A stretch of DNA of 22,217 bases from positions 1 through 22,217 of IMG/VR virus record IMGVR_UViG_3300035698_009726. The stretch is one strand, 5' to 3'. The notes under the pieces were generated by a model. That model was given only the letters and a program-made list of their open reading frames with translations, was not told where the DNA came from and ran no database searches. Shown piece after piece: positions 1,751-20,772 of the stretch. The position numbers and the translations under genes were made by a program. The stretch is from a virus. The first letter of the stretch is position 1; each line of letters starts with the position of its first letter.

Positions 1751-2616
1751 TTATTTACAAAACTACAAATCTAATAAACGGAAAGTTTTATATTGGACAA
1801 GACTCTAAAAACAATTCAGAATATTTAGGTTCAGGAAATCTTATTAAACGAGCAATTAAGAAATATGGAAAAGAGAATTTTAAAAAAGAAATTTTGGAAT
1901 TTTGTAAAGATCAAGAAGAGTTGAATGAAAAAGAATGCTATTGGATAGAAAAATTAAATAGCCAAAATTTGAAGATTGGATATAATCTTGCACATGGAGG
2001 GAACCAATGGATGCTGGGATTGAAATTTACTGACGATCATAAGAAACGAATAGGAGATTCCATTAAAGATTTTTATAAAAATGCATCTCCGGAATATATG
2101 GAAGAGTTGTCAAGAAAAAGGTCAGGTCCAAATAATCCTCAATATGGGAAGCCTAATCCAAAAGAACAGATAGATAGAGCAAATGAGACAAGATCAAAGT
2201 ATTGGACTTTGGATAAACGAGAAGAATGGTCGGAAAAAATGAAAAGGGTTTGGAATGAACTTCCTGAAGAAACAAGGAAGGAACATAAAAGAAAATCTGC
2301 CGGGGAAATGAACGTAAATTATGGAAAGGGATTCTATAAGATTTGGATAGAAAAACACGGTAAAGAAGAAGCTGACAAGAGATTAATAAGATTCAAAAAG
2401 AAAATGAGTCAGGTACAATTTAAGAAGGTTTATGTTTATAATGAACAAAATAAATTAATATCTGAACATCAAAGCCCTGAAGAAGCGTCGCAGATATACG
2501 GAATAAAAGTTTATACGATAAGAAGATATTGTAGAGTTAATGAAGATAAAAATGTACGCAAAAACACTTTTTTGTTTACATACAAAAATGAATTAGAAGG
2601 AGGTTTTCCATGTTGA
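1747..2616 (+). CDS. GIY-YIG homing endonuclease (Seg-like, NUMOD3 and NUMOD1/IENR1 domains)
   Basis: A 289-residue protein with an N-terminal GIY-YIG nuclease domain (about 1-85): I3-Y4-K at the GIY position, Y15-I16-G17 at the YIG position, YLGSG at 26-30, the metal-ligand Glu region at E63 in the NEKECYWI segment, and the closing GYNLAHGG at 78-85. Residues about 92-150 hold NUMOD3-like DNA-binding motifs (HKKRIGDSIKDFY; NNPQYGKPNP). Residues about 226-282 form a NUMOD1/IENR1-like module (VYVYNEQNKLISEHQSPEEA, then ASQIYGIKVYTIRRYC). It is complete and appears intact. It overlaps the HTH gene by ATGA, and its 3' end overlaps the probable original start of the gp25-like gene (ATG 2610). No intron halves are evident, so it is a free-standing endonuclease that probably invaded the intergenic region next to the baseplate gene. 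Confidence 0.9.
   Translation: MIIYKTTNLINGKFYIGQDSKNNSEYLGSGNLIKRAIKKYGKENFKKEILEFCKDQEELNEKECYWIEKLNSQNLKIGYNLAHGGNQWMLGLKFTDDHKKRIGDSIKDFYKNASPEYMEELSRKRSGPNNPQYGKPNPKEQIDRANETRSKYWTLDKREEWSEKMKRVWNELPEETRKEHKRKSAGEMNVNYGKGFYKIWIEKHGKEEADKRLIRFKKKMSQVQFKKVYVYNEQNKLISEHQSPEEASQIYGIKVYTIRRYCRVNEDKNVRKNTFLFTYKNELEGGFPC
2595..2603 (+). promoter_or_regulatory. Strong Shine-Dalgarno-like AGAAGGAGG before ATG 2610
   Basis: AGAAGGAGG ends 6 nt before ATG 2610, inside the last codons of the GIY-YIG gene. It is the best ribosome-binding sequence in the window and points to ATG 2610 as the intended start of the gp25-like gene. It also encodes Glu-Gly-Gly of the endonuclease, so chance is possible. 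Confidence 0.4.
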
Positions 2617-2710
2617 AGGAAATTTATTTTCCGAGATCCAACTGACCCAAAATATAGATGGGACAAATTTGAGGACACCAGCAACCTAAGCCGTCCTCAG
2701 CAAGATCCGA
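2610..2710 (+). pseudogene. N-terminal part of gp25-like gene, split over three reading frames
   Basis: Reading from ATG 2610 gives MLKEIYF and then a stop at 2643. Skipping base 2631 continues as RDPTDPKYRWDKFEDTSNL (2632-2688). Skipping base 2689 continues as AVLSKIR (2690-2710), directly in frame with the gp25-like ORF at 2711. The spliced product would be 118 residues, near the usual 130 or so of T4 gp25. Its AVLSKIRMILYTNRGE segment fits the family pattern of a helix followed by I-L-x-T-x-x-G-E. Two +1 offsets within 60 bp can mean genuine frameshift mutations after endonuclease insertion, sequencing or assembly insertions, or (less likely) recoding. Whether a full protein is made cannot be told from sequence. 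Confidence 0.55.
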
Positions 2711-2968
2711 ATGATTCTTTACACGAACAGAGGAGAAGTTCTCGGAGAGCCAGAATTTGGAATGGATTTAGAGAATTATTTATTTGACAAGAAAATAAAC
2801 GAGCAGGTATTAAAGGAGAGATTCTACGCACAAGTTTCCAAATATATACCTGAGTCTGAAGAGTATCAGATTGCTTGTAATGTAGAAGTAAGAACAGAGG
2901 GTTATAAGGACGTGGGATACTTGTATATCACAGTGAATGACGAAAAATATATCAATGTGCAATTATGA
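2711..2968 (+). CDS. Baseplate wedge protein, GPW/gp25 family (open frame possibly N-terminally short)
   Basis: An 85-residue open frame with the GPW/gp25 signature: ILYTNRGE at 2-9, PEFGMDLENYLFD at 14-26, then a helix (EQVLKERFYAQVSKYIPE) and two beta strands ending GYLYITVNDEKYINVQL. In T4, gp25 sits in the conserved core bundle of the baseplate wedge with gp6 and gp7 and helps start sheath assembly. The family normally has about 35 more N-terminal residues; here they are present upstream but in other frames (2610-2710). ATG 2711 has only a weak leader, and equates to a Met inside the family's conserved helix-strand, so it is probably not the natural start. The stop overlaps the gp6-like start (ATGA at 2965-2968), the usual gp25-gp6 neighbourhood, with likely translational coupling. 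Confidence 0.85.
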   Translation: MILYTNRGEVLGEPEFGMDLENYLFDKKINEQVLKERFYAQVSKYIPESEEYQIACNVEVRTEGYKDVGYLYITVNDEKYINVQL

Positions 2969-4800
2969 AAAAACTATTCAAATTAAGCCGTCTTAAGGTT
3001 GAAGAAATATTAGAAGATATTAGTTCCTACACTCGTCAGGTCTATGACCAGGCAGAGCAGGTATTTCAGGCATCTAGTCCATGGGGACAAATAATCGTTG
3101 TGCTTGGAAGACTTTCCCAAATGATGGTTTATTATATTGAAGACTCCATTACCGAGTTAAATATTAACACGGCAAGTCGACCTGATTCTATCAGAGGATT
3201 AGCTCAATTGGCGGGACATAATATTACCAGAGCAATTGCAGCAAATGGAGATTTGTTTCTTTCGTATAATGGCATCACACCTAAAATGACAGGCACCCAA
3301 GTTAAAATTCCAAATCTTAATGTTATAAAATGTAATGATAATGGATTAGAATATGTGGCTGTTTTTGAACAAGAGGAAATTAAAATTGATATCTACAATA
3401 GCAGAGAAAGACGATATTTTAAAATAATCCAAGGCAAGGTAGAAAGACAAGAGTTTACAGGTACAGGGGAAGCCGCTCAATCATTTCCAGTTTCTGTTCC
3501 AAATGGATCCATGGTAGATCATTGGTTTGTAAATGTTTATGTGAATGGAAAGAAATGGAAGAAGTTTGACAGTTTCTTGGATCTTCCAAATGGGGAAGAA
3601 GGATATTTGGTCAAAACTGGAATCACTGGAGGAGTAGATGTATTTTTCGGGAACGACCATTTCGGATCTATGCCACCTGAGGGTTCTATAGTTCAAATAG
3701 AATATTTATTAACAGACGGACTCAGAGGCAATATTAGAGCTACTGATGGCATTTCTTTTGAATTTGTTGATTCCGGATTTGACAATAATGGGGACGAAAT
3801 AGATTTAAATGAAATTTTTAATATTGGAATTCATACTCAGATTAACTTTGGAAGTGATCCAGAACCCACACATTTAACAAGATTACTTGCTCCAAACACC
3901 AGCCGTTCCTTTGTACTTGCAAATACAAAAAATTATATAAGCTTCTTTGAAAAGTTTCAGATGTTCAGTTATATTGACGCATATACAGAATATGATGAAT
4001 TTGATCCTTGGGTTGATAATGTAGTTTATCTTTTATTGGTTCCTGACATTCGTAAAAGATTTAGAGCAGGGGAAAACTATTTCACAATTCCTTCTGAATA
4101 TTTTCAGCTGACAGATCTTGAGAAAAGAAAGTTGCAAGTACTTCTGGAAGAGTCTGGGCAAAAAATTGTAAGTGCAATTGTTTCCTTTGTGGATCCTCAG
4201 TATAAAAAATATGGATTAAACATTAGCATTACTACATGGGAAGGCTATGATAAAGATGTAATTTATGATAAGATAGTAGAAAAAATGTCAAGTTATTTTA
4301 GTAGCTTTAAAAGAAAAGATTTCCTTCCTAAATCAGATTTAATTGCAATCATAGAATCTATAGAAGGTATTGATTCTGTTAGTTTGTATTTCATATCAGA
4401 GTTAATAGAGCAAGAGCTGGCATATTTATTAAACAAAGACACTATAGATTATTCACAGTCACTTACTGATTCTCAAAAGGTTCATCTTAAATCAGTGTAC
4501 GACGATTTAGAAGAAGCTGGACTGACATTGAATGAATCTAAAATTACTGCCATTTTAAAATATCCTACCTTTGTTAATTTTGTTAATAAGCATATTGACA
4601 TGAACGGAGATATTGTTTTATCAAAAAATGAAATGCCATTAATTAGAGGCGGATGGTCTGATAGGAATGGATTAACTTATGCGGACGAGCTAGATAAAAC
4701 TAAAGTTTCTTCACTCAATGTTTATGTATCGAGAGAATCTATTGAAGATTCATATGCAATTTTAAATGAATTAAATATAAGTAATATTAAGGATAGTTAA
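2965..4800 (+). CDS. Baseplate wedge protein, gp6 / Baseplate_J-like
   Basis: A 611-residue protein, close to T4 gp6 (about 660). Residues about 224-257 carry the Baseplate_J hallmark: VDVFFGNDHFGSMPPEG, then IVQIEYLLTDGLRGNI, the F-G-x-x-x-x-G-x-x-P-P-x-G...Y...G-x-x-G-N pattern. Residues about 416-480 (LNISITTWEGYD..., then FLPKSDLIAIIESIEGIDSVSLYF) match the family's C-terminal alpha/beta domain. gp6 forms the dimeric wedge ring that links the six wedges and drives baseplate expansion during sheath contraction. It overlaps the gp25-like gene by 4 nt, supporting the paired assignment. It acts in the virion baseplate, assembled in the cytoplasm. Sequence identity to T4 itself looks low, so the call rests on motif and synteny. 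Confidence 0.88.
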   Translation: MKKLFKLSRLKVEEILEDISSYTRQVYDQAEQVFQASSPWGQIIVVLGRLSQMMVYYIEDSITELNINTASRPDSIRGLAQLAGHNITRAIAANGDLFLSYNGITPKMTGTQVKIPNLNVIKCNDNGLEYVAVFEQEEIKIDIYNSRERRYFKIIQGKVERQEFTGTGEAAQSFPVSVPNGSMVDHWFVNVYVNGKKWKKFDSFLDLPNGEEGYLVKTGITGGVDVFFGNDHFGSMPPEGSIVQIEYLLTDGLRGNIRATDGISFEFVDSGFDNNGDEIDLNEIFNIGIHTQINFGSDPEPTHLTRLLAPNTSRSFVLANTKNYISFFEKFQMFSYIDAYTEYDEFDPWVDNVVYLLLVPDIRKRFRAGENYFTIPSEYFQLTDLEKRKLQVLLEESGQKIVSAIVSFVDPQYKKYGLNISITTWEGYDKDVIYDKIVEKMSSYFSSFKRKDFLPKSDLIAIIESIEGIDSVSLYFISELIEQELAYLLNKDTIDYSQSLTDSQKVHLKSVYDDLEEAGLTLNESKITAILKYPTFVNFVNKHIDMNGDIVLSKNEMPLIRGGWSDRNGLTYADELDKTKVSSLNVYVSRESIEDSYAILNELNISNIKDS

Positions 4801-4805
4801 AAATT

Positions 4806-5042
4806 ATGAATGGGTTTAGAGAAAAATTGGCACACAGAAATGATAAGTTATTAAACAGAGGATATGATTACCGAGGAAACGTCCTTTTTAACACGTTATC
4901 AAAAGCGTTCTTTTTAGAAACTAAAAGAACAGACATTTTGAACCAGATGGATAAATTGCTTGTTTACGTAATTGATTATATAAAGCATATTAAAAAGACG
5001 TTCCATTATGGACACGACAAGCATTTCAGAGATTTTAATTAA
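4806..5042 (+). CDS. Small basic protein of unknown function in the wedge cluster
   Basis: A 78-residue, strongly basic protein. The first 25 residues contain several Arg/Lys (REKLAHRNDKLLNRGYDYRG). A central hydrophobic helix (KLLVYVIDYIKHIKK, about 54-68) could pack against another protein rather than a membrane, and the end is His-rich (HYGHDKHF). It starts 5 nt after the gp6-like gene and ends 15 nt before the 1443-residue gene, so it is almost certainly translated from the same mRNA. I recognise no family. By position it could be a small wedge or assembly factor, but no motif supports a specific T4 equivalent such as gp53. Confidence 0.65.
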   Translation: MNGFREKLAHRNDKLLNRGYDYRGNVLFNTLSKAFFLETKRTDILNQMDKLLVYVIDYIKHIKKTFHYGHDKHFRDFN

Positions 5043-5057
5043 AAATAAAGGAAAATA

Positions 5058-8000
5058 ATGGCTCTTCGGCACTGTAAATTTTTCGACAAGCGAGGAAACA
5101 ACTGCACACCAATTTTGGATCCTGCAGATGGTTTCTTCCGTATAAATATCAACATGAATAAAGTCAGTACGAATTTATTTGAGACTGAGCATATCTTTAT
5201 TTTTGAGGAAATCTTAAAACAAGGGAAGGCCGAGGACGACTATAGTGAGAAGCAGTTGGCCAGAGTAAATGTTTATCAGTCTACAGAAATTCAAATTCTT
5301 AAATATTTAAGTACTCATGGTAAAATAATAGAAACTTCTTTGGATCGTTTCTTTCCAAAACAGCATCTCGGAGAAGATTACACAGACGAGTTTATCAGGA
5401 AGCATCCAAAATTATTTGAAAGAACAGCAACAGGATCCGATATTTATGTAGAGAACACTTTATACGGAACGTCGTACTTATCGTCTTATGAAGAGAAAGA
5501 AAGAGAAAAATTGCTTTTAGGAGATGATTGGGAGGCTATTTTAAGTCGTCCAAGATCTAACTATCAAGATTCGATGGGAGAGGAATGTTTTTTATATTTT
5601 AAATGGAAAGATGACAAAGTAAATAATGCCTTGGATAAAAATATTTTTGTCTTTTTGGTTGACTCCTCTGATCCAACCAAATACTACAGAGGAGACAAGG
5701 CTCTGTGCAGAGACATTGGAACTGCATACCCATCGTTAGTGCCCATCTATAATGAAAATCTTTTAAATAATACATTTGATAATCCAAACTGGAAAAATTT
5801 CTTTACGGATTTTTCGTTCGTAGAAGGAAACTCTGATTGGTACGAAGACCCTACATATTTCCAGGTTCCTGTCTATGACGAAGTTCATGATGATTGGTAT
5901 TATGAGAATAAATCTAATAAGCCACGTTATCAAATGAGAAGGAAGTTAGGTACTCAAACTGAAGTTGATCAAGCTCCGTTCCAATTGAATATTGCTCTTC
6001 ACGCGGCAGATGAGGGAGAGTACGAAAGAACATTAGAAGTTTTCATGGCCAGAAGAACAGTTAGTGGAGAAGTTATTTCTGGAGAAGACTTTCAAAAAGA
6101 ATACACTCGTAATTATTATAAATTGGCGGAAGTTACATTTAATGGTCAAGTCATAGGAAAAGACGAGAGACTTGAAAAAACACTTGAGAATTTCGGTAGA
6201 AAAATAGAAGACTCCGAGTTTTATGTTTTTGATGATACTGATGTAGATGAGGATCTTCCAAATTATATTAAGATAAACGAACATAGAAAAGAATTGTATT
6301 TACAAGGGGAGGATATTTATCCTTATCTGGGATCTTATAAGGCGTTTACAAATGTAATTAAATATTTTGGCCATACAAATCTTAGATTGAAAGAATATTT
6401 TTATAATATTCAACTAAGTGATCCTAAGAATGATAGAATTTATTACAGCGCAGTTGATATTCCATTGGATTTGAAAGTGCCAGAGGAATACAGAGAAGAT
6501 TATAACTATAACGAATTTGTTTTTGGGAATATCCTTCCAAGTCCTGTCCATAAAAAGACATCTAGATTTGGTTTGTTTTATGATTTAAACAGGATAACAG
6601 GGGATTTTGACGAATGGGGATATCCAGAAATAGAGGATGCATATGATTATACAAATGAAGAAGTTTTATTAAAATTATATGGTCTCAAAAAGGTCATGGA
6701 AAAATATTTTCTTCCTCATCATGCAAGGATTGTTGACATAACAGGAGAAGGCGTATATTTTGCTAAGTTCAAAGTTAATAATTGGCCTGACAATGTACAG
6801 TTTATTACTCTAAGAGAAGGAAATTCTCCAAAATTTGAAGCAGTCCCATTAAAGATGGAAATTAAGGAACTAAACAAGCTTCTGAATATTTACAGGTTAA
6901 AACAAGGGATTCCTTTTGAAGAGGTAATTGACCCTATGACTGTAATGAGTGACATTATAAATAAGACTGGCGAAGAGTACATGCCATATCAAACAACTGA
7001 CTTCCCATTTGATCCGGATCTCACTTTAGAAAAAATAGAATCCTTTTATCCAGATTATTATGAATTAAGAACAGTAATTTTAAATCATTTATTGAATATG
7101 CCATGTTATCAAGAAGTGATAGATGAGCATGGAAATTCAAAATGGATAGCAAAAAGCTTCCCATCTGAAGATGAGTTTAAGTTGTTAGGGACACCTTGTT
7201 TAATTAGATATCTTCCAAATGAAGTGACATGGGATGACATGAGGGTGCGTTGGGAATACTTAGAGTTTAATACACCTTCATTGATTGATGAAGGTGCTCA
7301 TAGATTATACACTTGGGATGGATTGGGTGATTATGAAGGTTGGGGCATTGAATGGAGAATACATCATTCGGAAGATAAATATTGCTATCAAAGTGAAGGA
7401 TTTATTAAGGACAAAAAAGAAGTCTTGGTGTTTCTTCCACACACAGGAAAATATGATGTAACCTGCAGAGTCACAGACATTACTAATTTTCCTAATCTTT
7501 CTAGGAAAGAAGATTATATTGAGGTTGTGAAACCCAAAGCAGATTTTGTGGCGTTCGGAAGAAAAGTCACGTCATATACAAATTGGGATTCGTTCAACGA
7601 CATTGCATGGGAAGATTTTCCAGGGAGTTGGAATCAAAGTGGATTTTGTGAACTACAGACAACCTGGGACGAAGCTGATATTACTTGGGATACCCTTAAC
7701 TATAAAAATTATATCAATCAAGATTTTGGATCTTCTTATAAAATTACAAATGAGATTTTGAGTGTTGATAGAGAAGATTGCAAAGTTATATTGAAGGGAA
7801 GAGATTTCTATGACAATACAGATCAATATAGAGATCAAAAATGGAGGAATGTTCTGATTTTTAATAAGTCCTCCGAAAATGTACCGGCGTTTGATAATAT
7901 GATCGTCGATGAAGTAGGATACGGAAAAGTAAAAGTTCAAGGCGGATATGAGTTTAAAGTAGGAGAAGAAATTGAAATATATAAATATGATTTATTAGAA

Positions 8001-9389
8001 GGAAGTGAATTTAGGATAGAAGGAGATTCTATTTGGTGTAAGACTTCTAATATAAATGCATTTGAGGTTGGCAAATACATAAGAATGATAGGCAATTATA
8101 CAGATGATTATTTCTACGAAGATTATATCATCAAGGAAATTAATGCCGATTACGTTCAGGGAATGATTCAGGTATTTGTTGTAGATGATGGATCTTTGTC
8201 ATACACACCATTTGTGAATCAGTTTGGTAATATGAGCAGGTTTAATGAAGCTGAATTAAGATCAGATCATTATACGTTTATTATAGAGTCTGTACTTGAA
8301 GATGGAATTAATGATCAAATGATACTTTCTGTAACTGACAAAAACAAACATTTATTCAAGCTAAAAGATAAAGATTTAAGTTTATATAGAGTTGCAACTG
8401 GTTTGACATCTGGTAGATTTGTCTTTCCTGTATTGATCACAACATTAACAGAGGACAATGACACCGAGGTTACCTTAGATTGTACTGGGTCTATATGTAG
8501 TATCACACCATCTTTCATCGCAGAATACAGTGATTATGACTTAGATTATGCTATTCGCTTTGGTAGTTCTCAACATTTGTTCTGGGACAATTATGATATG
8601 GTGTCATGGGATGAGATGTCTCATCAAACTTGGGACATGATGGAATATCTAGGAACTGCTATAACAGGATTTAGGATAACTAAGGTAGACAATGGAGGAA
8701 CAATACAATTTAACGAAGAAACATTCACATTTGATTTTGAAAATACTGGCCCAAAAAATTGGCTGACAAAAGCAACTAAACAATTAACAAAGTCCACACA
8801 AAATATAGTAAACCTTTTTAATTATTATAATATTAATGGGCATTATATTCAGGCAGTTAGTAAATATGGATCCATTGACGCATTAGTAAGTCTGAAGGGA
8901 AGTCCAGGAATTGAAGTGGAGGAAGACAGTTATCCAGATTGTAATTTTAAATTCTGGGAAAAGAAATTTTTTGATGGGTATAACAATCCTGCATTACACA
9001 AGCCTCTTAGAAGAGTGTGGGAAGAAAACGGAGAAAGTTTTGAAAACCCAACAGGAGATACAGAACTTTTCAATCCGTTTATTAATGTCCTGTCTGGGTC
9101 TTTTGGATTCTCGGATACTTTTATCAGGAAGAGTGATTTTACAGTTCAGCCAAATACAATTGTTTTTGTGGCGTTTGATGACATGGAGATGTTAGATAAT
9201 AATTCTACTTTTGAATGGGAACTGTGGGAAGATAGCAGAAAAAAATTAGTAATGAGATCAAACAAATCTTATTTAATTTTTAATTTTATGGAAATTGGAG
9301 CATATACTGTAAAACTTACAGTGACTTCAAAACAAACAGAAAAGAACATTTTCGAGAAACGTGGATGGATTTACGTAGAAAATGACTAA
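5058..9389 (+). CDS. Very large baseplate structural protein (gp7-like position) with Ig/PKD-like domains
   Basis: A 1443-residue acidic, aromatic-rich protein, the largest in the window, preceded by a modest AAAGGAAAATA leader. The N-terminal ~400 residues have no fold I recognise. Residues about 420-450 (YPYLGSYKAFTNVIKYFGH, then LRLKEYFYN) recall the tail-protein-I/wedge segment that adapts peripheral proteins. From residue 720 onward Trp-Asp motifs recur (W725, W753, W843, W870, W877, W1176 and following). Residues about 770-826 (ending HTGKYDVTCRVTD) and 1355-1443 (ending GAYTVKLTVTSKQ) look like PKD/Ig-like beta sandwiches. Directly after gp25-gp6, a giant wedge protein in the role of T4 gp7 (1032 residues) is the best guess. 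That equivalence is inferred from order and size, not from clear similarity. Confidence 0.75.
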   Translation: MALRHCKFFDKRGNNCTPILDPADGFFRININMNKVSTNLFETEHIFIFEEILKQGKAEDDYSEKQLARVNVYQSTEIQILKYLSTHGKIIETSLDRFFPKQHLGEDYTDEFIRKHPKLFERTATGSDIYVENTLYGTSYLSSYEEKEREKLLLGDDWEAILSRPRSNYQDSMGEECFLYFKWKDDKVNNALDKNIFVFLVDSSDPTKYYRGDKALCRDIGTAYPSLVPIYNENLLNNTFDNPNWKNFFTDFSFVEGNSDWYEDPTYFQVPVYDEVHDDWYYENKSNKPRYQMRRKLGTQTEVDQAPFQLNIALHAADEGEYERTLEVFMARRTVSGEVISGEDFQKEYTRNYYKLAEVTFNGQVIGKDERLEKTLENFGRKIEDSEFYVFDDTDVDEDLPNYIKINEHRKELYLQGEDIYPYLGSYKAFTNVIKYFGHTNLRLKEYFYNIQLSDPKNDRIYYSAVDIPLDLKVPEEYREDYNYNEFVFGNILPSPVHKKTSRFGLFYDLNRITGDFDEWGYPEIEDAYDYTNEEVLLKLYGLKKVMEKYFLPHHARIVDITGEGVYFAKFKVNNWPDNVQFITLREGNSPKFEAVPLKMEIKELNKLLNIYRLKQGIPFEEVIDPMTVMSDIINKTGEEYMPYQTTDFPFDPDLTLEKIESFYPDYYELRTVILNHLLNMPCYQEVIDEHGNSKWIAKSFPSEDEFKLLGTPCLIRYLPNEVTWDDMRVRWEYLEFNTPSLIDEGAHRLYTWDGLGDYEGWGIEWRIHHSEDKYCYQSEGFIKDKKEVLVFLPHTGKYDVTCRVTDITNFPNLSRKEDYIEVVKPKADFVAFGRKVTSYTNWDSFNDIAWEDFPGSWNQSGFCELQTTWDEADITWDTLNYKNYINQDFGSSYKITNEILSVDREDCKVILKGRDFYDNTDQYRDQKWRNVLIFNKSSENVPAFDNMIVDEVGYGKVKVQGGYEFKVGEEIEIYKYDLLEGSEFRIEGDSIWCKTSNINAFEVGKYIRMIGNYTDDYFYEDYIIKEINADYVQGMIQVFVVDDGSLSYTPFVNQFGNMSRFNEAELRSDHYTFIIESVLEDGINDQMILSVTDKNKHLFKLKDKDLSLYRVATGLTSGRFVFPVLITTLTEDNDTEVTLDCTGSICSITPSFIAEYSDYDLDYAIRFGSSQHLFWDNYDMVSWDEMSHQTWDMMEYLGTAITGFRITKVDNGGTIQFNEETFTFDFENTGPKNWLTKATKQLTKSTQNIVNLFNYYNINGHYIQAVSKYGSIDALVSLKGSPGIEVEEDSYPDCNFKFWEKKFFDGYNNPALHKPLRRVWEENGESFENPTGDTELFNPFINVLSGSFGFSDTFIRKSDFTVQPNTIVFVAFDDMEMLDNNSTFEWELWEDSRKKLVMRSNKSYLIFNFMEIGAYTVKLTVTSKQTEKNIFEKRGWIYVEND

Positions 9390-9433: not shown

Positions 9434-10258
9434 ATGGCTGAGATTAAAGTTAAAAAAATGTCCGGAAGTGATGTAATGTCCGGATCTCGAGAGTTAATAA
9501 ATAACAATTTCGTAATGCTACAGGATATTATTAACGAAATACAAGAATATGTAAATCTTGAAACATTGGAGTTTACCGGTTTCGAGAAGGCAACATTTTT
9601 CCAGGGTAATAAAAATACAGCGGTCCCGACACAGACTCTAATAGACACCAACGGATCTATTAAAGCTCTCGGGAATATAACAATTGGTGGGAATGTCATT
9701 GGCAACTTTGGTCAGTTTAATAATGGACTGAAAGTTGTTGCAGGAGATATTAACATACCGTCCTCGACAACAGCATTTAATCTTGCAGGAAATTTTAATG
9801 TTGGCGGAGAGATAGTATTAAAAGATTTTCAACAGGATGGTATTATTCCATCTGCACAAAAAGCATATTTCCTTAATCTTGCATCTGGCGGAACGTCCAT
9901 GTTAATATTATCTGGCAGTACTCCTATTGGTGGATGGGTAAGCATGAAGGGAAGAAACGGACTCGTTTTAAATTGGGAATTATATGATTCTCTAGATCCT
10001 GATTATGCGTTATATACCATCGGATTGAAAACAACAGACATCCCAGAAGGCTATGTAATTGACATCGTTGCTATGGTTAGTGATGCTTCAACTCTTGCAA
10101 ATGATGAATTTATAATATCATATGATAGTGTAAAATATCCAGGAGTTACGGCACCTACAAAAGGAATAGTTTTTACAGAAAGATATCAATCTGCAAGATT
10201 AATATTTACAAATTCAAATTGGGTTGTGACTAATCTTGTTGGTGCAACTTATGAATAA
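9434..10258 (+). CDS. Fibre-like virion protein with IN-x-NF N-terminal motif
   Basis: A 274-residue protein. Residues 12-26 contain S-D-x8-I-N-x-N-F, also found with identical spacing in the 467-residue collagen-like protein further on. A predicted helix follows (MLQDIINEIQEYV), then a Gly/Asn/Ile-rich beta region (GNITIGGNVIGNFGQFNNG; AFNLAGNFNVGGEI, about 78-135) typical of trimeric phage fibre shafts. The C-terminal half is a compact beta domain ending in NSNWVVTNLVGATYE. Such proteins are usually short tail fibres or baseplate-attached decoration. The gene lies 44 nt after the 1443-residue gene, with only an A-rich leader. Receptor binding is plausible but not demonstrated by any motif. 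Confidence 0.65.
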   Translation: MAEIKVKKMSGSDVMSGSRELINNNFVMLQDIINEIQEYVNLETLEFTGFEKATFFQGNKNTAVPTQTLIDTNGSIKALGNITIGGNVIGNFGQFNNGLKVVAGDINIPSSTTAFNLAGNFNVGGEIVLKDFQQDGIIPSAQKAYFLNLASGGTSMLILSGSTPIGGWVSMKGRNGLVLNWELYDSLDPDYALYTIGLKTTDIPEGYVIDIVAMVSDASTLANDEFIISYDSVKYPGVTAPTKGIVFTERYQSARLIFTNSNWVVTNLVGATYE

Positions 10259-10948: not shown

Positions 10949-13276
10949 ATGGCTTCAGATACTGAGTTAACAAAAGTAACCCCTTATGTAAGACAGATTG
11001 CAACGCAGGGAGGAACATTTTATACATTTTCCAGTGCGGCAGAGGATTTTACATTGTCGTTTAATGAAAATTCTGTTACTAATTTTAGGTTTTCTAAATT
11101 TGCGTTATTAAAGATTCCAGAAATTAGACAAGAACCTTACGCAAATACCCTGAAATTAGATGGGATTGCTGGTGCATATAATAAACTGACAAATAATAAC
11201 ATGAACGTTGACTTCGCTCAAAGTTTTCAGAATTATTGTTTGAATGCAGAAACTATGTTCCTTTCTCGAACAGCATATGACCATTCATTGCCTAAAACCG
11301 TGTCGGAGAGAGTATTTTGGAAATGGCTTAAGGAAATGGGAGGTTTGAGATTTCAAACATCTTCAGATCAACCATCCTGGGCCTATCCTTTATACAAAGA
11401 AGAAGATAATGTCACTGATAAATATGACAGGGTTGTAAAATACTTAGGTGAGATTGATTTTATAAACAATTACAGTGGTTTGACAAATACCTATTCTGAG
11501 GTGTATGCTCATGTCCCAACAGATGTCGGGGACTTTAAGGATGTTTACTTTAAATCAACCGAAGATGTGAACTACGCGCCAGGTATGACGCTTTGTAGGA
11601 TGGATACTACCGAGGCAGACAACTATTATATTGCTGGAAGAACTTATTTAGATACTCATCCAATGGGAGGATTTGACATTCGAGCATATTATGATAATCC
11701 TTGGGGACTCGGAACTGATGCCTCGCTTATTAGTGCAGGCGTTCAGATGTGGAAGAAAAAAGATAGTATTTCGGAAGCATCAAATAGCCTTCCGGATTAT
11801 AGTGTAGACACTTGGTGGTTTTTATCCACCAATGACAAACATTGTTATCACACTCAACCAAGGAATACTAATTCAGTAGAAAACGAAGACTTGTTAATAG
11901 GAGATTCTCAGTTTATAAGCGGCAACACAATACCTTTACAATGGACAAGACTAACAAGATCTAAATTAGAAGGAATTGAGATAGAATGGGACCCATCATC
12001 TTATACTCATTTAGAAGACGAAGTTTCTTGGTTAATAGATGTTGCCAGAGGAAGAAACGCAAAAGATTTTGAATTTAACGCAGTGCTATTTTATTATGAT
12101 TTATATGAGCCTGCTACAGATGATGTAAATGAAGTAACAACGACTTCCTTAGATGAGTCAACATTCTTTTCTGATTTCTCAGATGAAAATGAGTTAGCAA
12201 ACTCAACAGACACAACATTAGCAACTAACTTATTTGGTATCTTGTTTTTAGACAATGTCGAGCCTCTTTCATTAGGAGGAGGATATATTCCAACATTCCA
12301 AAAATGTATACCGAATAGAGAAACAAAACTCAATGGTAATTCATATGGAATAAAATTAAATATGAAACTTGACATTTCCGCAAATGATTCATTTGTAAAT
12401 GTAGAGACTGTTATTTCTGACAGTAATACGTTGTCGATGGACATATACGCGGATTCTTTAAACGAAATTAAAAAAGCATCTGACAGTATGTTTACTCTGT
12501 CAGAAGATATTATGAATTTCGATTCTAGATTGAGAGATATTGAAGATATTAATAATATTAATACACAAGCATCTTACAATGCTCTTAAATCAAGATTAAA
12601 TCAACTTGAGCTTTATATGAACAACCAAGAGTTGTTTTTAAATATAGCAGAGCGTAGAGAAATGCTGGACATGATTCAAAAAAATTATGATATGCTTGAT
12701 AGTATTCTTTCTAATAATGCATCGATAACGGTTGCATTTGACTTAGACGGAGTTCGTAATGGTCCAGGGGTTTCATTGGAAAGAGGAGAAAACTATGTGA
12801 AGATTTCTACATCTTCTAATGGGTTCAATTTTGGTAATAATTATATCATAAACCCTCCTTCAGACGAGAGGGAAACTGACGAATGGATAGAAAGAAACAG
12901 AAATTTGGCAGATGAAAATTTCTATGAATTTGAAGCTGATCTACAACCATTAAATAATTATATTAGGTTCACAAATGACAATGCAAGATTTACTCCTGCA
13001 GGGGATTTTTATTTTTATATAAAAGATGGACTTAATAACTGGCAGACAGGTCAAATATATCGAGTTTATTTTGAAGGAGAATATGATCTGCAAAACAAAT
13101 ATAAATTTATTATCAAAACAGATTTTAATAATATTAAGGTTGCAAAAGAAAACTATTCTGTTACCATAGCAGATGTTTCTGGAGCAGAGTTTTTACAAAT
13201 GGGGAATAAACCAGTATTTGAGATCCATTGTTTGGATGCAGATAATATGTTATTCTTAATAGACAAATTGAAATAA
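10949..13276 (+). CDS. Large virion structural protein with central coiled coil
   Basis: A 775-residue protein. The start at 10949 follows an AAAGGCAACAAATA leader 27 nt after the histone-like gene. The N-terminal ~480 residues are Tyr/Trp/Asp-rich, beta-type sequence with no signal peptide. Residues about 494-590 form a long helical, probably coiled-coil segment (DSLNEIKKASDSMFTLSEDI; SRLRDIEDINN; ALKSRLNQLELYMNNQELFL), and the last ~180 residues return to beta sequence. A beta head, coiled coil and beta tail is common in trimeric baseplate or fibre proteins. It ends 4 nt before the M15 peptidase gene, suggesting coupled translation and a joint location in the baseplate hub or its periphery. 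I recognise no named family; a structural role is inferred from size, composition and neighbours. Confidence 0.7.
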   Translation: MASDTELTKVTPYVRQIATQGGTFYTFSSAAEDFTLSFNENSVTNFRFSKFALLKIPEIRQEPYANTLKLDGIAGAYNKLTNNNMNVDFAQSFQNYCLNAETMFLSRTAYDHSLPKTVSERVFWKWLKEMGGLRFQTSSDQPSWAYPLYKEEDNVTDKYDRVVKYLGEIDFINNYSGLTNTYSEVYAHVPTDVGDFKDVYFKSTEDVNYAPGMTLCRMDTTEADNYYIAGRTYLDTHPMGGFDIRAYYDNPWGLGTDASLISAGVQMWKKKDSISEASNSLPDYSVDTWWFLSTNDKHCYHTQPRNTNSVENEDLLIGDSQFISGNTIPLQWTRLTRSKLEGIEIEWDPSSYTHLEDEVSWLIDVARGRNAKDFEFNAVLFYYDLYEPATDDVNEVTTTSLDESTFFSDFSDENELANSTDTTLATNLFGILFLDNVEPLSLGGGYIPTFQKCIPNRETKLNGNSYGIKLNMKLDISANDSFVNVETVISDSNTLSMDIYADSLNEIKKASDSMFTLSEDIMNFDSRLRDIEDINNINTQASYNALKSRLNQLELYMNNQELFLNIAERREMLDMIQKNYDMLDSILSNNASITVAFDLDGVRNGPGVSLERGENYVKISTSSNGFNFGNNYIINPPSDERETDEWIERNRNLADENFYEFEADLQPLNNYIRFTNDNARFTPAGDFYFYIKDGLNNWQTGQIYRVYFEGEYDLQNKYKFIIKTDFNNIKVAKENYSVTIADVSGAEFLQMGNKPVFEIHCLDADNMLFLIDKLK

Positions 13277-13280
13277 TAAG

Positions 13281-14078
13281 ATGGGATTAAAAGTTTGGTC
13301 AAACGGAGCAGGATCAGGTCCTTATAGTTCTCGATGGAGTAACGAAAAGAAAGGACAGAGTGGTCATCTGTCTCGAAGTTCATTGAACAGAGGACTAATT
13401 AAACCAGCGTATGATCAATGGATAAAACTATTGGGTGCTGCCAAATCTTCTGGAATCTATATAGGTACTGGAGGAACATATCGGAGTTTTGCTTCACAGC
13501 AGAAGGCAAAACGAGAGAAGCCTAATTTGTGCGCAACTCCTGGAAATTCAAATCATGGATGGGGAAGAGCAATTGATTTAGGTTATTATAGTAAGCAAAA
13601 AAAGATTGATAGTTCATCTGTATGGATAGGATATGACGGAAGTATTAGTTTTTCACATCCTGTTTATAATTGGTTATTTAATAATGCATATAAGTTTGGG
13701 TGGGTGAATCCGCCATGGGCAGCAAAGGCAACAGGGAGCAGAAAAGAGTATTGGCATTGGGAGTTTGTTGGTTTGCCAGGGTCAAATCAGGTTAATGTAG
13801 CAGTTGATGAAGATGCAGTATATACAGAAGGTGAAGGGGACGCGACAAGTACAGGAGGAGCAAATGGGACTGGATCAACACAACCAAGAATAGAAGCCAG
13901 GATTGCTTATTTTGAGATACAAGATGTTTTTAAAACGAGTAGCGTTAGTACGACTGCAGATAAAAATGGATCTGTAAAAGAAACAAAAAGTACTAAAGAA
14001 AAATCAACAGACCCAGATCTCAAAACAATTTCTAAAAATGATATTAAAAAAGATGAAACATCTCTTAACATTGAGTAA
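13281..14078 (+). CDS. Tail-associated M15 peptidase (D-Ala-D-Ala carboxypeptidase / VanY-like)
   Basis: A 265-residue protein with a clear M15 peptidase domain (about 30-165). YRSFASQQ at 67-74 carries the substrate-binding Arg region. SNHGWGRAIDLG at 90-101 is the S-x-H-x-x-G-x-A-x-D motif with zinc ligands H92 and D99. EYWHWEF at 156-162 supplies catalytic E156 and third ligand H159. These enzymes cut D-Ala-containing peptide bonds in peptidoglycan; as either carboxypeptidase or endopeptidase it would loosen the wall. Residues ~175-265 are a Gly/Ser/Thr- then Lys-rich tail lacking the catalytic motifs, perhaps an attachment tether. No holin or signal peptide is nearby and the gene is embedded among structural genes, so a virion-borne entry enzyme (analogous in role to T4 gp5 lysozyme) is more likely than a release endolysin. 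Confidence 0.88.
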   Translation: MGLKVWSNGAGSGPYSSRWSNEKKGQSGHLSRSSLNRGLIKPAYDQWIKLLGAAKSSGIYIGTGGTYRSFASQQKAKREKPNLCATPGNSNHGWGRAIDLGYYSKQKKIDSSSVWIGYDGSISFSHPVYNWLFNNAYKFGWVNPPWAAKATGSRKEYWHWEFVGLPGSNQVNVAVDEDAVYTEGEGDATSTGGANGTGSTQPRIEARIAYFEIQDVFKTSSVSTTADKNGSVKETKSTKEKSTDPDLKTISKNDIKKDETSLNIE

Positions 14079-19368: not shown

Positions 19369-20772
19369 ATGGCTGATGAGTATTCAAAAATACGAATAGA
19401 AACCACGCAAAGTAACTTGGTGATAGAACGTTTACGAAAAAGTGATACGTTTGGAAATGTACTTGACAAAATAAACAAGAATTTTGAAGAGGTACAGGAA
19501 AACGGCGGCGGACCGTTGGGGCAGTTAGGGCCACAAGGTAAGCCAGGATGTAGAGGCGTTCCTGGTCCAGTTGGGAAAGCAGGGGAATCAGATTTGAACT
19601 GGAAAAATATTCTTTCAGAGAAGTGTGACAGTGAAGAGCCTAATAACGAGACTGATGCTGAGATCATCATGAATAGGCTAACTAATCGTTCTTTGCTTCT
19701 TACTAATTTAATTCTGACCGATGATGACCTTATTAAATTAAAAGATATATCGTCTGTTGAAGAGACTATGGAAAAAGTCTCTAATACTTTTTCGGAATAT
19801 AAACTTAAGGTTTACAATGGTCAAAGTACCGGAAGAGGAGAACATGTTCATTTAGTGAACTCTGCCGCGGCACAGGATAACTTTTATTATTTGTGTAAAT
19901 CAGGATTTACAATTTCAAATGATTGGTTCGCCACCGGAGTGAACAGAGAAATTTTGAGAATAAGTGGTCAAAGAAATGCACAAATAAATAATCATTATTT
20001 AGACGCTGAATTTAATGTAGATTTGTTTAGTATTCGTAACAGAGAGTCTTCCCAATCTTTAGAAATAGATCCCGGATCTATAGTTGATAGTGTTCATAAA
20101 CTTCGTTTGACATTAGACACTCAGACAGCACAGAATGAGGTAAATCTTCCAGATAAAAAAGGATACAATTCTGTATGGACAGATGTTCTGCAAAGAGGAG
20201 AAACTTGGGAAATTACATCTGAATCTGATCTAAAAATTTATAAAAGTATTATCTGGGATTCCTCATATACTCCTTATGATATTGCGGAGGATGGAGATCA
20301 TTGGATTGAACTTCATGAAGATTCTTATATAAGATTTAAAAGGAACAATGATTTAGTGCTTGTTGATTTTCATTTAGGCGTAAAAAGAGATCCTTTACAA
20401 GATAACTTCACGTTAAGAACTCTTCAAGTTAGAGTGAATGTCCCAACAGTTGCCATGCGTACAATCGGGTGGTATCCAACGTCAATTTTGGAAAATGAAA
20501 GTATTTTAGAAGATAGTTCCGCAGAAAGCTTTTATGGACATTTTAAAATAGATAGTGTTGATTATGGGGATGGGACGTATAGTTTTCAGATAACTAATAA
20601 AATCCCAGCAGAAATCTATAACATGACATTTGACAGCACCACAGGAACCAATGAATTGTTTTGGATAACAGGACAAACATGGGCAACTATAGCAGATAGT
20701 GATACGGTTTGTGAATTGTTAGAAATCGTTCAAGAATCTGTGTGTCCAAATGTTGTAATTCAACAAAGTTAA
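19369..20772 (+). CDS. Collagen-like virion protein with IN-x-NF anchor motif
   Basis: A 467-residue protein. Residues 25-39 hold S-D-x8-I-N-x-N-F, matching the 274-residue fibre-like protein with the same spacing. This leads directly into nine unbroken G-x-y triplets (residues 48-74: GPL GQL GPQ GKP GCR GVP GPV GKA GES), long enough for a short collagen-like trimeric stem. A helical segment (~90-145) and a beta C-terminal region follow (TWEITSESDLKIYKSIIWD; DGDHWIELHEDSYIRF; QLEIVQES-like end). Collagen-like stems are common in phage fibres and tail-tip proteins. The N-terminal anchor, trimeric stem and distal beta domain suggest a fibre or spike bound to the baseplate. No receptor-binding motif is recognisable. 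Confidence 0.72.
   Translation: MADEYSKIRIETTQSNLVIERLRKSDTFGNVLDKINKNFEEVQENGGGPLGQLGPQGKPGCRGVPGPVGKAGESDLNWKNILSEKCDSEEPNNETDAEIIMNRLTNRSLLLTNLILTDDDLIKLKDISSVEETMEKVSNTFSEYKLKVYNGQSTGRGEHVHLVNSAAAQDNFYYLCKSGFTISNDWFATGVNREILRISGQRNAQINNHYLDAEFNVDLFSIRNRESSQSLEIDPGSIVDSVHKLRLTLDTQTAQNEVNLPDKKGYNSVWTDVLQRGETWEITSESDLKIYKSIIWDSSYTPYDIAEDGDHWIELHEDSYIRFKRNNDLVLVDFHLGVKRDPLQDNFTLRTLQVRVNVPTVAMRTIGWYPTSILENESILEDSSAESFYGHFKIDSVDYGDGTYSFQITNKIPAEIYNMTFDSTTGTNELFWITGQTWATIADSDTVCELLEIVQESVCPNVVIQQS
19510..19590 (+). repeat. Nine collagen-like Gly-x-y codon triplets
   Basis: The segment encodes nine consecutive Gly-x-y units with Pro at several x or y positions, and one Cys at an x position (GCR). 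Gly codons are mixed (GGA, GGG, GGT, GGC), so this is protein-level repetition rather than a recent DNA expansion. It is also richer in G and C than its surroundings. Confidence 0.9.

Follow-up and report, generated by a model that had tools for sequence, protein, structure and literature searches.

In phage T4, an endonuclease gene lies alongside genes 39 and 60, and a ribosomal hop in gene 60, by which a gap of 50 nt is bypassed, has been described (PMC5009743). The homing endonuclease I-TevI cleaves DNA 23 and 25 nt away from the site of its insertion, and known free-standing endonucleases have cleavage sites hundreds or thousands of bases away from their own genes (PMC2988022). Here we analyse a virus record of 22,217 nucleotides that contains a tail gene cluster (the whole stretch is called the window in the following), in which a gene for a baseplate wedge protein of the gp25 family (positions 2610-2968) occupies three different reading frames at the border of a gene for a GIY-YIG homing endonuclease (1747-2616). 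Both genes, as well as the small helix-turn-helix gene and the gp6-like gene that flank them, are located on the plus strand.

The gp25-like gene begins with ATG 2610, which is preceded by the Shine-Dalgarno sequence AAGGAGG (2597-2603). As the preliminary description of this DNA had stated, this ribosome-binding sequence is a strong one. It is the strongest among the starts listed and is located inside the 3' end of the endonuclease gene. In the frame of ATG 2610, the first piece MLKEIYF (2610-2630) is followed by PRSN and then by a TGA stop codon (2643-2645). The second piece, RDPTDPKYRWDKFEDTSNL, is encoded in the +1 frame (2632-2688). The third frame is open from position 2690, just past a TAA codon (2687-2689), and its translation AVLSKIRMILYTNRGE... 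extends up to the TAA at 2966-2968. This third piece (AVLSKIRMILYTN...; 2690-2968) represents the body of the gp25-like protein and matches the gp25 family profile with an E-value of 1.6e-39. No alternative genetic code has to be invoked, since under table 11 the structural frames are open, with TAA as their stop codon.

The two nearest relatives, L009/L092 and L002/L093, encode gp25-like proteins of 119 amino acids each, which are 84% identical to each other, and in both of them the N-terminus (MLKEIYFRDPTDPKF...RLEAVLSKIRMILYTNKG) is found in a single open frame, starting with MLKEIYFRDPTDPKFSHLKMDETGRLEAVLSKIRMILYTNKGE... in the case of L009/L092 and with MLRELYFRDPSDPKYSRSKMDETGKLEAVLSKIRMILYTNRGD... 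in the case of L002/L093. When compared to L009, all seven residues of the first piece are identical and all base changes are synonymous, and in the second piece 10 of 19 residues are identical, with 7 of 8 over the stretch RDPTDPKY. As the relatives carry this N-terminus in one frame, the three-frame reading of the window reflects homology and not chance. Neither relative has an endonuclease of the window's kind beside its gp25-like gene, so that L002 and L009 represent endonuclease-free alleles. The preliminary description had claimed a gp25-like N-terminus scattered over three frames and had proposed a comparison with endonuclease-free relatives; its translations were reproduced, and in L002 and L009 the same N-terminus is unbroken. 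Also, a survey of viral contigs and huge-phage genomes comprised 86 gp25-like ORFs, that of the window included. The N-terminus is complete in 84 of them and is cut by the contig end in another one; the window gene, which lacks the intact reading frame of its homologues, is the only one broken within. Neither shift is present in any other of these ORFs, and the sequence at the first lesion was not found in another viral contig, within a set that may lack near-identical records.

In comparison to L002 and L009, the window has one extra base after TTTT at about position 2631 (TTTTCC; lesion 1). At lesion 2 (2687-2689), where the TAA of the third frame is located, the window reads CTAAGCC and L009 reads CTTGAGGCC; the site in the relatives, CTTGAGGC(C/A), encodes Leu-Glu-Ala. 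Overall, the gene has a length of 359 bases in the window versus 360 in the relatives. Because the residue spacing from the N-terminal motif to the FTNKGE motif is free of indels in 83 of the 86 homologues, and because both close relatives are one residue longer (119, not 118), the parsimonious reading of lesion 2 is a loss of two bases near 2688, and not the gain of one base combined with a codon lost independently. The two indels inside 60 bp noted in the preliminary description are thus seen against relatives. However, its repair, by which bases 2631 and 2689 are omitted to restore a protein of 118 residues, holds for the surplus base near 2631 and not for base 2689, as the spacing favours a 2-nt loss, and the 118-residue protein was dropped for an ancestor of 119 residues, given the invariant spacing. 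Similarly, assembly insertions had been proposed there; an assembly error could have occurred, but lesion 2 looks like a loss of two nucleotides and not like an insertion.

When codons 1-34 were compared to those of L009, reading each piece in its own frame, 35 base differences led to 9 amino acid changes. For 35 random changes, 20.9 non-synonymous codons would be expected instead of the 9 observed, and none of 5000 simulations gave a number as low. Against L009, dN amounted to 0.285 for the N-terminal part and to 0.271 for the rest of the gene. The N-terminal part is therefore as constrained as the rest, which indicates that the entire N-terminus was kept by selection during most of the period after the separation of the lineages. 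This constraint across the lesions excludes a long-standing neutral decay. The lesions would be either recent or not real, and recent lesions, errors or recoding are the explanations that the constraint data would leave.

The gene is a member of the gp25 family of baseplate wedge proteins, in agreement with the preliminary identification. The gp25-like family profile matches T4 gp25 (5iv5) at 1.6e-5 by sequence, and a fold model, which was built for the intact relative L092 and not for the window protein (mean pLDDT 78.6, first 7 residues unreliable), gave T4 gp25 structures 5iw9 (E 1.6e-4) and 5iv5 as top Foldseek matches. The Pfam family PF04965 matched the window protein at 4.4e-4 with 20.4 bits, below the curated cut-off of 27.2. 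The next gene, encoding a gp6-like baseplate wedge protein (2965-4800), is intact (PHROG 219, 2.2e-29) and shows 69% identity to L002 in a gap-free alignment. The claim that neighbouring genes are unshifted was confirmed, as no frame change occurs when 2965-8975 is aligned with the L002 ORFs of 612, 99 and 1304 residues (about 6 kb). The best protein matches of the wedge genes of the window are to huge phages: the gp25-like gene has matches in six uncultured phage records of 462-735 kb, and matches of the gp6-like gene include Prevotella Lak phages besides other huge phages, suggesting that the window phage is kin of known huge phages. No relative was found in the genome contigs searched. With the 611-residue neighbour of the gp25-like gene as query, no match was obtained in the viral contigs searched, and the relative's copy of this neighbour gave two matches in viral contigs. 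Further downstream, a VanY-type peptidase (13281-14078; 1.9e-16) is encoded inside the tail cluster and is possibly a tail-borne cell-wall enzyme, and a protein with a short collagen-like stretch (GPLGQLGPQGKPGCRGVPGPVGKAG) is encoded at 19369-20772.

The ORF adjoining the gp25-like gene, which had been described as a homing endonuclease, does encode a free-standing GIY-YIG protein of 289 amino acids. Its GIY-YIG domain scored 25.0 bits versus a curated cut-off of 22.6 (Pfam GIY-YIG 2.4e-5), the SegE_GIY-YIG match (2e-5) likewise exceeded its curated cut-off, and the PHROG match was to homing endonucleases (7.2e-33). At its 3' end, with the TGA stop codon at 2614-2616, the endonuclease gene overlaps the first codons of its gp25-like neighbour. 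The endonuclease start overlaps, as ATGA, the stop of a gene for a small helix-turn-helix protein of 59 amino acids (1571-1750; Pfam HTH_17 2.7e-7; PHROG excisionase-like 1.8e-6), which had no match in 50,697 phage records and may be an accessory part of a mobile unit. All 14 other ORFs counted (159-20772) stop with TAA and none with TAG or TGA, whereas the helix-turn-helix and endonuclease genes (1571-2616) both stop with TGA, which suggests that this pair arrived recently from another background. The protein encoded at 159-980 of the window belongs to DUF7487; it contains repeated units of the KYGVD type, and its end weakly resembles a TnsA-like endonuclease. A similar repeat protein is encoded at 3051-3875 in L002, a few kb upstream of its gp25 gene. 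Besides the endonuclease, these proteins may represent another nuclease-like family that occupies this locus.

An endonuclease relative of 415 amino acids, 62% identical over the first 103 residues, was found in the 462-kb phage record LR756500.1 (L172, 302000-306500), another huge phage, where its 3' end overlaps the beginning of the following gene, an intact one. There, the endonuclease sits between tail genes that resemble those at 9434-10258 and 10949-13276 of the window, as read from translations and, for the gene resembling 9434-10258, also from an alignment. The overlapping type of endonuclease junction thus seems to be recurrent, and an endonuclease that abuts an intact virion gene shows that invasion in itself need not damage the next gene. 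Both damage on endonuclease invasion and an assembly error could have caused the lesions of the window.

Recoding had been one of the options in the preliminary description. A full protein could be produced by a pair of +1 ribosomal frameshifts or by a single hop leading from frame 0 into the third frame, which would perhaps shield the target from the endonuclease, and the conservation of the N-terminus across both junctions as well as the presence of an endonuclease alongside, as in the case of T4 genes 39 and 60, would fit such a scheme. At lesion 1, UUU-C (2628-2631) is able to slip +1 to UUC, but at lesion 2 a CUA tRNA would have to shift onto UAA without any re-pairing, and two shifts working in series are needed. 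A hop would remove the conserved RDPTDPKY, which is encoded where gene 60-like bypassing would have a non-coding gap. Furthermore, programmed frameshifting at these sites is not conserved among the relatives, and RNA folding at the lesions is unremarkable (z-scores of -0.35 and -1.9). A 5-bp stem touches lesion 1 and a 7-bp inverted repeat (2670-2699) surrounds lesion 2, but the window contains 48 perfect repeats of at least 7 bp. No tRNA gene, which would be a suppressor candidate, was found in the window, and a search for group I introns and other RNA elements gave none at gathering score and one match at chance level. We therefore consider recoding to be very unlikely, and its most specific version, in which the shifts are real, fixed, read by serial frameshifting and selected to hide the target site from the endonuclease while the virion protein is made, to be more improbable still. 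Recoding, if it took place, would make this gene a second case of the T4 gene 60 kind, with an endonuclease driving a change in the decoding of a gene.

The preliminary description had also considered a product made from the internal ATG at 2711-2713, that is, a working wedge protein truncated to 85 residues in the presence of real lesions. In favour of this, the frame that is open from 2690 is conserved, the region around 2711 folds weakly (-1.1 kcal/mol), and hosts of the Bacteroidota type, a host assignment made here from Lak-phage kinship alone, often do not need a Shine-Dalgarno sequence. However, ATG 2711 has none, and with an A+T fraction of 0.44 in the preceding 25 bases, compared to a range of 0.72-0.92 for the genes that begin at 2965 or later and to a mean of 0.66 for internal ATGs, its upstream region is the least AT-rich among the starts compared. 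None of the 86 homologues naturally lacks the N-terminus, the N-terminal part is still conserved in the other frames, and according to the model 13 residues would be missing from the 16-residue helix 1 (residues 22-37). Such a start is therefore unlikely. It is highly doubtful, and a matter of speculation, that lesion 2 arose by faulty repair of a GIY-YIG break, whose strands, cut 2 nt apart and then trimmed, would have lost two bases near 2688. Its reading as a 2-nt loss, the spacing of the I-TevI cuts and the position of the lesions at the border of the endonuclease gene would agree with this, but free-standing endonucleases cut far from their own genes, lesion 1 would not be explained, and the related endonuclease in LR756500 abuts an intact gene. 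In addition, breaks in phage DNA are mended by recombination with an intact partner.

Very probably, then, this is an ordinary gp25-family wedge gene starting at ATG 2610 whose N-terminal third is disrupted by two indels that break the frame, a surplus base near 2631 and the loss of two bases near 2688. We infer both indels to be recent and non-functional, either artefacts or a private mutation. The single-frame homologues, the fact that among 86 ORFs only that of the window is internally broken, and the lack of any frameshift in the 6 kb of alignable neighbours speak for recent indels. Also, the frame from 2690 would lose most of helix 1, so that retention of the N-terminal part is expected in a viable phage. 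We see about an even chance that the lesions are errors of the local consensus or of the assembly next to the endonuclease boundary, and a real, private mutation of this genotype is conceivable, if doubtful; an artefact is somewhat more likely than a real mutation. The data would be compatible both with a fault of the local consensus at a boundary, perhaps one that is polymorphic in the population, and with a private mutation in a defective genotype, and in either case the broken frame would not be decoded by any special mechanism. Against recent indels it can be said that the occurrence of two independent errors inside 60 bp, with no others elsewhere, is odd (given two lesions, the rough chance of such clustering is 0.02 over 6 kb, or 0.006 over 20 kb), that the conservation pattern by itself would be identical under recoding, and that, if real, an essential gene broken in the population consensus needs explaining. 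The gene represents a new member of the gp25 family; its broken frame would be a private mutation at best, if it exists at all. Mainly, it provides an example of the evidence (relatives, spacing, codon constraint and start context) by which a disrupted essential gene from a single metagenome contig can be judged before recoding is claimed.

When compared to T4 gene 60, the window likewise has out-of-frame pieces of a conserved protein next to an endonuclease gene, but the intervening 57 bases encode conserved residues of the same protein, and a supported pair of take-off and landing sites is lacking. Like the free-standing GIY-YIG endonucleases of the T4 Seg family, the predicted endonuclease of the window has a GIY-YIG/SegE_GIY-YIG domain, is intergenic and shares the strand of its neighbours; in contrast to them, it is preceded and overlapped by a small helix-turn-helix gene. 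Finally, the N-terminal third of the wedge protein is split over three frames, unlike that of T4 gp25 (PF04965, PDB 5iw9/5iv5), whereas the predicted fold of the intact relative and the gp6-like wedge gene that comes next in the tail cluster resemble the T4 case.
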